The notes under the pieces were generated by a model. That model made no database searches and was not told the DNA's origin. It saw only the letters and a list, made by a program, of their open reading frames with translations. Below are positions 31,174 through 35,246 of a stretch of DNA of 38,961 nt, piece after piece. The stretch is from positions 1 through 38,961 of the forward strand of contig JAFEEB010000065.1 of the NCBI GenBank assembly GCA_018241325.1, in the 5' to 3' direction. The stretch's first letter is position 1, and each line of letters opens with the position of its first letter. The DNA comes from Pseudomonadota bacterium (lineage in GTDB: Bacteria; Pseudomonadota; Gammaproteobacteria; Burkholderiales; Burkholderiaceae_C). Both the position numbers and the translations under genes were made by a program.

Positions 31174-31232
31174 TTGCTCTGAAATTTATAGCTGTATGCG
31201 CATGCTGTACAAGCGCTGCGGCTTGATTTGAA
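31174..31232 (+). repeat. Comamonadaceae-type palindromic repeat, copy at the xerD start
   Basis: The stretch TTGCTCTGAAATTTATAGC then TGTATGCGC, ATGCT, GTACAAGCGCTGCGG and CTTGATTTGA fills the whole gap between the Bug receptor stop and the xerD ATG at 31232. It is the clearest intergenic copy in the window and shares block order and spacing with the copies in mutL and miaA and the one at 33542-33588. Confidence 0.75.
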
Positions 31233-32146
31233 TGAGTCCTGCACGGGTCGCCTCCGACGCCTCGATCGACCGCTTCACCGACGCCCTGTGGCTGGAAGAC
31301 GGCCTGTCGGCCAACACCCTGGCCGCCTACCGGCGAGACCTGAGGCTGTACGCGCTCTGGCTGGGCCAGGCGCACGGCGTGGCGCTGGCGCAGTCGCAGG
31401 AGCACCACCTGCAGGGGTACTTCGCCGCCCGCGCCGACACCCGCGCCACCTCGGCCAATCGGCGGCTGACGGTGTTCAAGCGCTACTTTCGCTGGGCGCT
31501 GCGCGAGGGCCTGATCCGGCAGGACCCCACGCTCAAGCTGCTCGCGGCCAAACAGCCCCTGCGCGTGCCCAAGACCCTGAGCGAGGCGCAGGTCGAGGCC
31601 CTGCTGGCCGCGCCCGACACCGACACGCCGCTGGGCCTGCGCGACCGCACCATGCTGGAGCTGATGTACGCCAGCGGCCTGCGCGTGAGCGAGCTGGTCG
31701 CCCTCAAAACCATCCATATCGGTCTGAACGAAGGCGTGCTGCGCGTGCTCGGCAAGGGCAGCAAGGAGCGCCTGGTGCCCTTTGGCGAGCTGGCGCGCGA
31801 CTGGCTGGAGCGCTGGCTGCAAGGCGGCCGCCCCGCGCTGCTGGGCGCGCGGCAAACCGAGGCCTTGTTCGTCACCAGCGCCGGACGCACGCCGGGCACC
31901 GCCATGTCGCGCGTGATGTTCTGGAGCCTGGTCAAGCGCTACGCACGCCAGGCCGGCATCACCACGCCGCTGTCGCCGCACACGCTGCGCCATGCCTTTG
32001 CCACGCACCTGCTCAACCACGGGGCCGATTTGCGCGCGGTGCAGATGCTGCTGGGCCATGCCGACATCTCCACCACCACCATCTACACGCACATCGCGCG
32101 CCAGCGGCTGAAGGACCTGCACGCGCAGCATCATCCGCGGGGCTGA
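31232..32146 (+). CDS. xerD: Tyrosine recombinase XerD
   Basis: XerD is the site-specific recombinase that works with XerC at dif to resolve chromosome dimers. The 304-residue product has the SAM-like N-terminal DNA-binding domain (IDRFTDALWLEDGLSANTL, TFKRYFRWA-type VFKRYFRWALREG) and the catalytic domain with Arg151 (ASGLRVSEL), Lys175 (GKGSKER), His250 and Arg253 (SPHTLRHAFATHL), His276 (MLLGHADIS) and Tyr285 (TIYTHI). The ATG at 31232 directly abuts a repeat element and no Shine-Dalgarno sequence is visible. There are no phage or IS genes around it, so it is the housekeeping recombinase. Confidence 0.95.
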   Translation: MSPARVASDASIDRFTDALWLEDGLSANTLAAYRRDLRLYALWLGQAHGVALAQSQEHHLQGYFAARADTRATSANRRLTVFKRYFRWALREGLIRQDPTLKLLAAKQPLRVPKTLSEAQVEALLAAPDTDTPLGLRDRTMLELMYASGLRVSELVALKTIHIGLNEGVLRVLGKGSKERLVPFGELARDWLERWLQGGRPALLGARQTEALFVTSAGRTPGTAMSRVMFWSLVKRYARQAGITTPLSPHTLRHAFATHLLNHGADLRAVQMLLGHADISTTTIYTHIARQRLKDLHAQHHPRG

Positions 32147-32291
32147 GCGCCATCCTTGCCCGCTGGAATCCGCTGGCTGGCTCACCCAGCCCATCGGATA
32201 GGCCAGCGCTGCTGGTGCGGGCTTGCGGTGCAAGGCGAGTTGATGCTGCGCTTCGGCGCGAACGGCTGAGGGGTTTGCAAAGCCCGCGAGA

Positions 32292-32307
32292 CTGTATAAA
32301 AATACAG
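32292..32307. promoter_or_regulatory. LexA (SOS) box in front of the radical SAM gene
   Basis: CTGTATAAAAATACAG fits the CTGT-N8-ACAG consensus exactly and has an AT-only core. It lies five bases upstream of the ATG at 32312 and contains a TATAAA -10-like hexamer (32295-32300), so LexA would block RNA polymerase directly. TTTGCA/TTGCAA at 32274-32280 could be the -35. The rest of the 165-base gap after xerD shows no gene. Confidence 0.85.
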
Positions 32308-32311
32308 TCGC

Positions 32312-33421
32312 ATGAACCCCGATGATTCGATTCCACGCGGCGCGCGCGACGCCCTCCAGGCGCTGAAGGGCCGAGGCGCGGTGTCCCGGCTGGCGCACCG
32401 CTTTGTGCGGGATCAACGCAGCGCCTTCGATGATGGCTGGGGCGAATGGACCGATGACGGCGCGACGGCGGCCCCCGCCACCCAGGTGATCTGGCAAGAC
32501 GCCCGCAGCGCCATCAGCGCCAACGACTCGCCCGACATCGCGTTCGACTACGCGGTCAACCCGTATCGCGGCTGCGAGCACGGCTGCATCTACTGCTTTG
32601 CACGGCCCACCCACAGCTACCTGGGGCTCTCGCCGGGCCTGGACTTCGAGACACGCATCATCGCCAAGCGCAACATCGCTGCCGTGCTGGCGCGCGAGCT
32701 GGCGGCGCCGCGCTATCGACCCTCGGTGATCAACATCGGATCGGCCACCGACGGCTACCAGCCGGTGGAGCGCGAGCTGCGCCTGACGCGCAGCGTCGTC
32801 GAGTTGCTGGCGCGCGCGCGGCATCCGCTGTCCATCGTCACCAAGTCCAGCGGCATCGAGCGCGATCTGGACTTGCTGGCGCCGCTGGCCCAGCAAGGGC
32901 TGGCCGCCGCCTACGTGACCATCACGACGCTGGACGCCGGCCTGGCACGCATCCTGGAGCCGCGGGCCGCCGCGCCGCACCGGCGCCTGCGCACCCTTCG
33001 CGCGCTGGCCGAGGCGGGCGTTCCGGTGGGCGTCAGCGTGGCGCCGCAGATTCCGTTCATCACCGAGGACATGGAGCAGGTGCTGGCGGCCGCACACGCC
33101 GCCGGCGCGCGCCGCGCTTTCTACACGGTGCTGCGCCTGCCCTGGGAGTTGTCCGAGCTGTTTCAGCAGTGGCTGCTGGCGCACTATCCGGACCGGGCCG
33201 CACGGGTCATGGCCCGCGTGCGTGACATGCGCGGTGGCAAGGACTACGACAGCGGCTGGGGTCAGCGCATGCACGGGCAGGGCGTATGGGCCGACGTGCT
33301 GCGCCAGCGCTTTGAGCTGGCCTGCCGCCGCCTGGGCCTGAACCGCGAGCGCTTTGGGCTGGATGCGAGCCGGTTCCGCCCCGGGGCGCTGAGGGGGCAG
33401 ACGGACTTGTTTGATGGGTGA
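32312..33421 (+). CDS. PA0069-type radical SAM protein (SplB-like), SOS-controlled
   Basis: This 369-residue radical SAM enzyme belongs to the COG1533/SplB-like group (DNA repair photolyase-like), close to the PA0069 family. The [4Fe-4S] cluster motif is CEHGCIYC (Cys88, Cys92, Cys95), preceded by YAVNPYRG and followed by ARPTHSYLGLSPGLDFE. INIGSATDGYQPVE and TKSSGIERDLDLL form the SAM-binding side, and GVPVGVSVAPQIPFITE the end of the barrel. The C-terminal GLDASRFRPG is family-typical. The ATG at 32312 follows a LexA box with no room for a Shine-Dalgarno sequence, so the leader is very short or absent. Its substrate is unproven; SOS control suggests repair of damaged nucleic acid. Confidence 0.9.
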   Translation: MNPDDSIPRGARDALQALKGRGAVSRLAHRFVRDQRSAFDDGWGEWTDDGATAAPATQVIWQDARSAISANDSPDIAFDYAVNPYRGCEHGCIYCFARPTHSYLGLSPGLDFETRIIAKRNIAAVLARELAAPRYRPSVINIGSATDGYQPVERELRLTRSVVELLARARHPLSIVTKSSGIERDLDLLAPLAQQGLAAAYVTITTLDAGLARILEPRAAAPHRRLRTLRALAEAGVPVGVSVAPQIPFITEDMEQVLAAAHAAGARRAFYTVLRLPWELSELFQQWLLAHYPDRAARVMARVRDMRGGKDYDSGWGQRMHGQGVWADVLRQRFELACRRLGLNRERFGLDASRFRPGALRGQTDLFDG

Positions 33422-33541: not shown

Positions 33542-33588
33542 AGCGCTTGTCCTGCTTGCGCAACAAGCTATCAATAAAATAGTGTCAT
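33542..33588 (-). repeat. Comamonadaceae-type palindromic repeat, copy before the eptA stop
   Basis: Read on the minus strand: ACTATTTTATTGATAGC, TTGTTGCGC, AAGCA, GGACAAGCGCT. It contains the full core and lies in the 163-base gap between the radical SAM gene and eptA, overlapping the last bases of eptA by about four. The two genes converge here, so the repeat may act as a transcript end. Confidence 0.75.
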
Positions 33589-35246
33589 CCCGCCCCCTGG
33601 CACATCACGCCCATGTCGCGCCGCGGGTCGTACACCTTCGTGCGCACGCCCAGCAGGCCCAGAACCGTATGAAAGTAATTGTCTTGCGACACGTGTTCGT
33701 CGCGCAGCCTGGCCAGGCACTTCAGGCTGATGCCGCTCTCCTGCTGGAACTGGGGCGACAGCCAGAACACCCAGGGAATGTGCTTTTGCACGTCGGGCGC
33801 AAACCGATAGGGCAGGCCGTGCAGGTACAGGTTGTTTTCGCCCAGCGACTCGCCGTGGTCGGACAAATACATCAGGGCGGGCGACCACTGGGCCTCGTGC
33901 GCCTTCAGCCAGTCGATGTTGCTGGCCAGCACGTGGTCGGTGTAGACGATGGTGTTGTCATAGGCGTTGACCACCTGCTCGCGCGAGCACTGCTGCAACG
34001 CGTTGGTGGTGCATTCGGGCTCGAACTTCTTGAAGGCCTTGGGCGAGCGCTTGTAGTAGGCCGGGCCGTGGCTGCCCATCTGGTGCATGAAGACCACCAC
34101 GCCGCGCGCCCGCCGCTCAGGCGGCAACTGGGCGATGCGCTCGTCCAGGCCGTTTTGCATGACCTCGTCCAGGCACTCGCCCTCGGCGTCGCACAGGCCG
34201 GGGGTTTGCAGCGCCTTGTCGTCCACGGTGGGCACGCGGTCGCACACGCCCTTGCAGCCGCCGGCCTGGTTGTCCAGCCACAGCACGGCGTAGCCGGCGC
34301 GCTGCAGCACGTCGGCCAGGCCCTCGGTGTTGTCCTGGCGCGCGTCGAAGGCCTCGCGCCCCAGCGGCGAGAACATGCAGGGCACCGAGGCGGCCGTGTT
34401 GGTGCCGCAGGACCAGGCGTTGCGCAGGCTGACCACGCCGCGCGCGGCCAGCTCGGGTGTGGTGTCGCGGGCATAGCCGTTCAGGCCTTGGTGGTCCGAG
34501 CGCGCGGTTTCGCCCACCACCAGCAGCACCAGCGGCGGGTGCGCGCCGGCGGGGCGAGGCGCCAGGTGCGCGTCCTGCCCGATCGGCAGCACCGCCGCGC
34601 CGTTGCGCTGGATGGGCCGCTCGCCCAGCGTGGCGATGGCGTAGAACGAATTGAGCGGATTGATCAGGTAGCGCAGCTGCGTGTGGTTGCGCATGGTGGC
34701 CGACAGGTCCTGAAACGACAGCCCCATGGCGACGATGGCCAGCGCCAGGGCGGCCACCAGGGTGAGGGCGTTGTTGCGCAACTGGCGCAGGCCCGAGGGC
34801 CAGGACATGCGCGCACGCCACAGCAAGGCCACGGGCAGCACGCCCAGCAGGGCCAGCGCGCCGGCCATGCGCCAGCTGAGCAACTCGCGCGCCTCGCGCG
34901 TGTCGGTCAGCAGCACGTTGACCATCATGGTGCGCTCGATCACCACGCCGTAGCTGAGCATGAAGTAGGCGCCGGCCGCAGCGGCCAGCAGCATGAAGGC
35001 GAGCACCGGCTTGAGCGACCAGCGCCAGGCGAACAGGCTGCTGATGGCCACCTGCACCGCGCCGATGAGCAGCGCAAACGCCAGGCCAAACAGCCAGCCG
35101 CGCGCGTTGCCCAGCTCGGGCAGCGCGGCCAGAGCCCGCCACAGCGCCAGATTGCCGATGGTGGCGATCCACAGCGCCGCCAGCACCATCACCGTGAGTG
35201 GGCGCAGGCCGCGTGGCGTGGCCGTGGGCGTTGTCTTGTCCATCAT
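33585..35246 (-). CDS. eptA: Lipid A phosphoethanolamine transferase EptA
   Basis: This is an inner-membrane/periplasmic enzyme that transfers phosphoethanolamine to lipid A and lowers its negative charge. The 553-residue product has five predicted membrane segments in the first 175 residues, then an alkaline-phosphatase-like domain. Metal and catalytic residues are visible: Glu246 in VVGETARSDH, the nucleophile Thr284 in SCGTNTAASVPCMFS, His393 in MGSHGPAYYKR, and Asp463/His464 in LSDHGESLGE. Six or more cysteines placed as in EptA/MCR suggest the usual disulphides. The start could be either of two adjacent ATGs at 35246 and 35243. No two-component regulator genes are adjacent. It is a chromosomal EptA; I see no mobile-element context. 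Confidence 0.94.
   Translation of the reverse strand: MMDKTTPTATPRGLRPLTVMVLAALWIATIGNLALWRALAALPELGNARGWLFGLAFALLIGAVQVAISSLFAWRWSLKPVLAFMLLAAAAGAYFMLSYGVVIERTMMVNVLLTDTREARELLSWRMAGALALLGVLPVALLWRARMSWPSGLRQLRNNALTLVAALALAIVAMGLSFQDLSATMRNHTQLRYLINPLNSFYAIATLGERPIQRNGAAVLPIGQDAHLAPRPAGAHPPLVLLVVGETARSDHQGLNGYARDTTPELAARGVVSLRNAWSCGTNTAASVPCMFSPLGREAFDARQDNTEGLADVLQRAGYAVLWLDNQAGGCKGVCDRVPTVDDKALQTPGLCDAEGECLDEVMQNGLDERIAQLPPERRARGVVVFMHQMGSHGPAYYKRSPKAFKKFEPECTTNALQQCSREQVVNAYDNTIVYTDHVLASNIDWLKAHEAQWSPALMYLSDHGESLGENNLYLHGLPYRFAPDVQKHIPWVFWLSPQFQQESGISLKCLARLRDEHVSQDNYFHTVLGLLGVRTKVYDPRRDMGVMCQGAG

Follow-up and report, generated by a model that had tools for sequence, protein, structure and literature searches.

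Does a radical SAM gene that starts directly behind a LexA-like palindrome belong to the SOS response, and if so, what would its product act on? The question is raised by one locus in the window, by which we mean the whole 38,961-nt stretch of beta-proteobacterial DNA analysed here. The gene occupies 32312..33421 (+ strand) and encodes a 369-aa protein of the PA0069 family, which matches NF033668 from end to end of the model (451.5 bits, cut-off 360, positions 1-348 of 348) and the radical SAM model PF04055 (49.1 bits, cut-off 29.5). As the original prediction claimed, the reading frame is intact and contains a CxxxCxxC motif: CEHGCIYC at residues 88-95 (32573..32596, + strand), whose C88, C92 and C95 are assigned to a 4Fe-4S cluster and are invariant in 52/52 aligned orthologs. 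This alignment (A1) comprises 52 of 62 rows picked from 81, with L055 left out for a stop and nine more omitted.

The candidate LexA (SOS) box, CTGT-ATAAAAAT-ACAG, is a 16-base palindrome (CTGTATAAAAATACAG) at 32292..32307 (+ strand) with exact CTGT and ACAG arms, the single such site in the window and one that is kept upstream of orthologs. The fifth base past the box is the A of the ATG at 32312, so the claim of a perfect box just before the start codon holds in both position and spacing, and a Shine-Dalgarno sequence cannot fit in the 4-base gap (32308..32311, + strand). From the upstream stop to the KGRG motif conserved in the family, which starts at residue 19, this ATG is the sole in-frame ATG, GTG or TTG. 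A -10-like hexamer had also been claimed to overlap the box, and TATAAA does lie within it (32295..32300, + strand). However, a sigma-70 scan with a 16-18 nt spacer gave no promoter pair at the box region and no convincing -35, so the hexamer is tentative and no more than suggestive.

Bare arms say little alone, because the host genome holds no more of them than of a backwards control: the 3.82 Mb assembly has 11 sites for CTGT-N8-ACAG and 11 for the control. The window has one site vs 0.27 expected from shuffles, with at least one site in 25 of 100 shuffled windows, and arithmetic from the genome rate puts the chance of the bare pattern in a given 50-nt stretch at ~1.4e-4. The A/T-cored form CTGTATNNNNATACAG, allowing up to one mismatch, is found at 4 genome places vs 1 for its control. 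The exact form is unique to the radical SAM gene, and the three one-mismatch sites lie before imuA, before lexA and on contig C82. The lexA gene itself is on contig C77 (TIGR00498, 224.5 bits, cut-off 110.95) and has CTGATTAAAAATACAG and CTGGATAACAATACAG in its promoter, each one mismatch from CTGT-N8-ACAG, while CTGTATGAATATCCAG lies 22 nt before the imuA ATG. The imuA call comes from NF033429, at 114.1 bits for a 154-aa piece, which is below the whole-protein cut-off of 150. According to PMC6595937, most Betaproteobacteria have CTGT-N8-ACAG as their SOS box. Contig C82 (L012, G000:C82, 4754 bases), which holds CTGTACCGTAATACAG, encodes proteins that from their translations look foreign to a beta-proteobacterium, and it is perhaps assembly contamination.

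A scan of orthologous promoters had been suggested as a check, and it bore out the box. The region scanned was the 200 nt that precede the KGRG codon, in 110 loci made up of the window gene plus 29 and 80 from two ortholog searches. Exact CTGT-N8-ACAG was present at 68 of these loci, and the best site had one mismatch at 16, two at 14, three at 11 and four at 1. When the loci were split by record title (two by the look of the protein), all 17 non-beta loci (9 alpha-type, 6 Xanthomonadales and 2 gamma) were without an exact box, so the undivided count of 68/110 becomes 68/93 among beta-type loci. The window gene is counted in the latter, one locus is a repeat (L023 = L045, leaving 92 distinct) and some records carry no title more precise than Proteobacteria or Myxococcales. 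Among 44 loci of the class or order that belong to other families, 28 had the exact box, divided unevenly by family (e.g., 15/15 in f15, 0/6 in f17 and 0/3 in f26). The exact box was thus lacking at 25/93 beta-type and 16/44 other loci. The best rival among the 256 same-gap palindromes reached 5/93 beta-type and 3/44 other-family loci, CTGT/ACAG at other gaps from 4 to 13 occurred at 0 or 1 locus, and GTTC-N7-GTTC occurred at none of the 44.

Forty further genomes of the window's own family, hand-picked among the matches listed and scanned over ~380 nt (520 for G230) with 60 nt of the match included, gave an exact box in 36 and a one-mismatch site in 4, vs 0/40 for the control arms GACA-N8-TGTC. 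One of these loci repeats an earlier one (L300 = L053), so 35/39 new loci are exact. In L296 the exact box is 262 nt upstream of the match; the one-mismatch site of L324, 207 nt upstream, looks like chance. The other same-genus ortholog, in G230, has CTGTATAAAGACACAG. Presence of the gene varies within the genus: among the four genomes listed for it, one of them the window's own, G015 and G146 (completeness 99-100 %) have no match at 1e-40.

Other lineages have other boxes. In a phylum-wide sample, the PA0069 family was found in 172/398 genomes, 11 of them from the window's own family, and 148 of the remaining 161, namely the 44 above and 104 outside the class, were scanned upstream of the gene (of the 13 left out, 12 had no listed place and G306 was skipped, its match beginning at model position 27). 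CTGT-N8-ACAG was found in 0/104 genomes outside the class. GTTC-N7-GTTC, which we take to be the alpha-proteobacterial LexA box, was found in 89/104 and lacking in 15. GTTC pairs at other gaps came to 0-2 in these 104 genomes, and the next-ranked direct repeats (TGTT in 70 and TTCT in 48) share letters with GTTC and appear to be these sites read in a shifted register. The alpha-type loci of the first set agree, with an exact GTTC-N7-GTTC in 7/9. TTAG-N6-TACTA, presumably the Xanthomonas LexA box, precedes 2/15 Xanthomonadales-type orthologs vs 0/232 others. The next nearest NCBIfam model to the window protein is the Rv2578c family (NF038135, 207.8 bits, under its cut-off of 430), which has a likeness in regulation as well: among four actinobacterial relatives, GAAC-N4-GTTC, which we assume to be an SOS box, is exact in one, while two have a looser GAA-N6-TTC and one has neither. 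A LexA-type box is therefore retained while its motif changes, as expected of a real SOS member. We also observed a PA0069-type gene with a GTTC-N7-GTTC box in a record titled Mycobacterium sp. KBS0706 (L116), a label that may be wrong.

The box belongs to this gene and not to a neighbour. Upstream, a xerD-type recombinase gene (31232..32146, + strand; TIGR02225, 352.3 bits, cut-off 329.6) lies outside the unit as context and is co-directional, on which ground we rejected the idea that the box serves a neighbour gene. Downstream, a phosphoethanolamine--lipid A transferase gene (33585-35246, - strand; NF028537, 573.6 bits, cut-off 500) is convergent to the radical SAM gene, which is therefore a single-gene unit; the transferase is of the ordinary EptA type, as it scores far below the cut-offs of the listed MCR models. 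We surveyed neighbours at 79 loci (flanks up to 3 kb, frames of at least 110 aa) and listed the 14 largest groups, none of which covers more than 14 of the 79 loci. One group, of 13 loci, reaches across distant lineages, and at 12/13 it consists of an antisense frame lying on the radical SAM gene, with L074 unconfirmed; a LysR-type group covers 5 loci and the remaining groups are confined to related genera. Since the neighbours vary between lineages, the box travels with the gene. A role in anti-phage defence was rejected, there being no PADLOC hit.

The claim that the mRNA is nearly leaderless is supported by comparison. We measured start spacing in the 96 orthologs with an exact box (68 + 28, window gene counted). 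The start lies 0-8 nt after the box in 23 of them, 12 of which have a single base between ACAG and ATG, and it overlaps the box in 10. An SD-like tetramer lies upstream of 0/23 close starts vs 21/63 starts further away. At least 7 of the 23 close-start orthologs have a further in-frame start downstream, which makes their true start ambiguous. Outside the class, the start in the 89 boxed genomes lies most often 12 nt (17 genomes) or 23-25 nt (42 genomes) from the box, and 24 of the 89 have an SD-like tetramer. Because starts without a Shine-Dalgarno sequence recur among orthologs, a near-leaderless mRNA is likely and is the simplest reading.

Taken together, the conserved box, the boxes at the genome's own lexA and imuA promoters and the exchange of one box for another in other lineages strongly support the LexA control that had been claimed, and the radical SAM gene is very probably under DNA-damage (SOS) control. 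We are confident of a fuller reading, in which a single-gene SOS unit with a near-leaderless mRNA would produce a PA0069-family enzyme that likely acts on damaged nucleic acid, at a lesion unlike that of spore photoproduct lyase (SPL). The mechanism that we infer, from LexA binding and induction to the start site, repair activity and substrate, would run as follows. LexA would sit on the box, covering the -10 region and the transcription start, and keep the gene off. DNA damage would activate RecA and so cause LexA self-cleavage, and derepression would yield a short mRNA starting at or a few bases before the ATG at 32312. The product would be a 4Fe-4S radical SAM enzyme, most likely acting on damaged nucleic acid via a 5'-deoxyadenosyl radical; both its lesion and its way of returning the hydrogen would differ from those of SPL. 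It is the regulation that makes mending of nucleic acid likely, because relatives keep the damage link even where the box motif has changed.

An improbable alternative is that the gene encodes a true SPL (SplB) under SOS control, reversing 5-thyminyl-5,6-dihydrothymine. The two families do share a radical SAM barrel and the CxxxCxxC motif, and 25/52 aligned family members weakly match the SPL Pfam model, PF20903 (best 1.7e-5). Compared as profiles, the family and three SPL-model hits align over only 60 columns of the C-terminal half at 94.7 % probability, or 93 columns of that half with the best hit alone, and PMC3323433 gives the name splB to the SOS-regulated gene. However, the window protein gave no hit to the SPL model at E up to 1, and its genome (G000) has no match to it at 1e-5; such matches occur in 2/150 genomes sampled. 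Cys141 of the B. subtilis enzyme is described as the hydrogen donor in PMC9850924, whereas the PA0069 family has no conserved fourth cysteine: beyond C88, C92 and C95, the next highest cysteine columns reach 26 and 21 of 52 orthologs. When aligned with MAFFT, the best SPL hit has its counterpart of this cysteine opposite an ortholog gap beside S144-A145, in a stretch that aligns poorly, and two weaker SPL-model hits are likewise without a cysteine at that place. We therefore rejected SPL family membership (no model hit, no extra invariant cysteine), with the poor alignment of the region as a caveat. The kinship with SPL that had been claimed survives in a distant form: the window protein is a distant SPL relative and probably not an SPL. 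Comparison with known structures was uninformative: phmmer against the PDB returned 18 weak matches, chiefly over ~40 residues, of which 14 were to pentatricopeptide-repeat proteins, and the family profile matched SkfB over a short stretch (0.00046) and NifB at 0.23 or worse.

The enzyme could instead be SOS-controlled and act on RNA or on something other than nucleic acid, for example by repairing or modifying tRNA after damage. Modification of RNA or peptides is common among radical SAM enzymes, and a nucleic-acid substrate is so far a matter of reasoning from regulation. We still regard this as unlikely: the family or its near relatives stand behind other LexA-type boxes in other bacteria, and some orthologs stand behind an element common to DNA-repair genes (the TGAGAC element, below). 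That the box is a chance palindrome before a constitutive gene would suit the equal genome and control counts and the quarter of shuffled windows with a site of their own, but the box lies at a like position in most orthologs and is replaced by another LexA-type box elsewhere; its conservation among orthologs leads us to reject chance, which we consider extremely improbable. The preferred reading thus remains an SOS-controlled enzyme for damaged nucleic acid.

Part of this link has been published as a prediction, so the window gene is a new and well-supported example of it. The study of Sanchez-Alberola et al. (PMC3323433, 2012) predicts 'splB' to be LexA-regulated in alpha- and beta-Proteobacteria, with Variovorax paradoxus among the beta species tabulated, and uses the same argument from a changed motif to count 'splB' as an SOS member. 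Like the window gene, that 'splB' is an SPL homolog with predicted LexA boxes of different motifs in two classes. It differs in being named a photoreactivation enzyme, whereas the window gene falls within the PA0069 family and outside the SPL model; we infer that the two are the same family. Five other papers tie radical SAM genes, not necessarily of the PA0069 family, to LexA or SOS as well: COG1533 is in the Bacteroidetes LexA network (PMC8565304), radical SAM genes are in Gram-positive and Balneolaeota LexA sets (PMC7739468), one has a LexA ChIP site in Streptomyces venezuelae (PMC9380542), unnamed ones have SOS boxes in Acidovorax citrulli (PMC6595937) and SplB-like genes stand beside SOS factors (PMC3765255). 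As to the suggested place of PA0069 in the P. aeruginosa SOS regulon, none of the papers searched names PA0069 together with LexA, and one that mentions PA0069 uses it as a chromosome tag site. The significance is that an enzyme present in 172 of the 398 genomes sampled would be tied to DNA damage through lineage-specific LexA-type boxes, and that its usual name (photolyase, SplB) is probably wrong.

Xanthomonadales-type relatives suggest a further change of control. We placed 15 orthologs in this group: 6 named loci plus 9 genomes of f17 and f26 that probably belong here. In 11 of the 15, all without a LexA box, TGAGAY-N10-YANNNT lies shortly before the start, with an ATG, GTG or TTG in any frame 2-7 nt past the element (6 or 7 nt in 9/11). 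The remaining four comprise the two with TTAG-N6-TACTA and two with neither. The element precedes 1/232 other orthologs and is expected 0.015 times per 15 mononucleotide-shuffled sequences. The 11/15 count is partly circular because the pattern was drawn from some of the same 15 orthologs, so genome searches form the independent part of the test. TGAGAC-N10-YANNNT-N5..8-ATG occurs at 12 places in 6 genomes vs 0 for the backwards control (G684 has none), and at 50 places in 60 genomes of one family vs 3 for the control, with matches in 36/60. Five places are common to both lists, leaving 57 distinct ones (L325-L381, in genomes of family f17 and G507). When the ATG was not required, CTGAGAC had 4 matches in four genomes: the radical SAM gene accounts for two, a third has no gene just behind it and the last lies 40 nt before a 68-aa frame.

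Most genes behind this element look like repair genes. An open frame of at least 50 aa follows 45 of the 57 places, 11 have a short frame only and L334 was not read. The 45 targets were grouped by BLAST, and one or two members per group, none of them PA0069-type, were scanned for family. Eleven targets are PA0069-type (10 full-length plus the 83-aa L373), 4 of these 11 coming from the genomes used to design the pattern. Seven are in the group of L331, a UDG-linked radical SAM protein (TIGR03916, 561.4 bits), and 5 are helicases: L348 is RecQ, L358 is Lhr-like and the other three resemble L358 by eye. There are also 4 RmuC-like proteins, 3 5'-nucleotidases, 2 DnaE2-like proteins and 13 singles. 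The singles include UmuD (whose gene has TTAG-N6-TACTA upstream too), exonuclease I, an AlkB-like 2OG-Fe(II) oxygenase and a KTSC protein; the others (an arginyltransferase, a periplasmic binding protein, an ADP-ribosylglycohydrolase and six nameless frames) may be chance. In total, 32/45 targets are of repair type. On G386:C1, the 83-aa copy L373 behind TGAGAC lies just upstream of a full copy, L194, which has TTAG-N6-TACTA.

The element lies ~23-28 nt before a leaderless ATG, which puts it near -26, and is followed by a -10, a layout that we take to resemble mycobacterial PafBC promoters. This geometry makes a WYL-type activator a candidate. WYL proteins are present in 8/8 genomes searched, with one ortholog group in 6/8 (L382-L386 and L388), and no link between WYL genes and the element was found in those eight. 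A broader picture, slightly more open to doubt than to belief, sees in the PA0069 family a core DNA-damage enzyme of bacteria, with SPL-unlike chemistry and with a damage control that has outlived several changes of the LexA motif. In the Xanthomonadales-like family, LexA would then have been largely replaced by a separate, probably LexA-independent leaderless repair regulon defined by TGAGAC-N10-YANNNT-N5..8-ATG, with a WYL-type activator as candidate. Such a regulon possibly spans, in various genomes, genes for the UDG-linked radical SAM protein, recQ, lhr, rmuC, dnaE2, exonuclease I, an AlkB-like protein and umuD. If real, the element would mark a second repair regulon in this group, where we know of none.

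Two minor observations concern phages. The protein encoded at 32312-33421 also matches phrog_13321 (function unassigned) at 156.8 bits, and four phage records hold partial relatives of it at <60 % identity.
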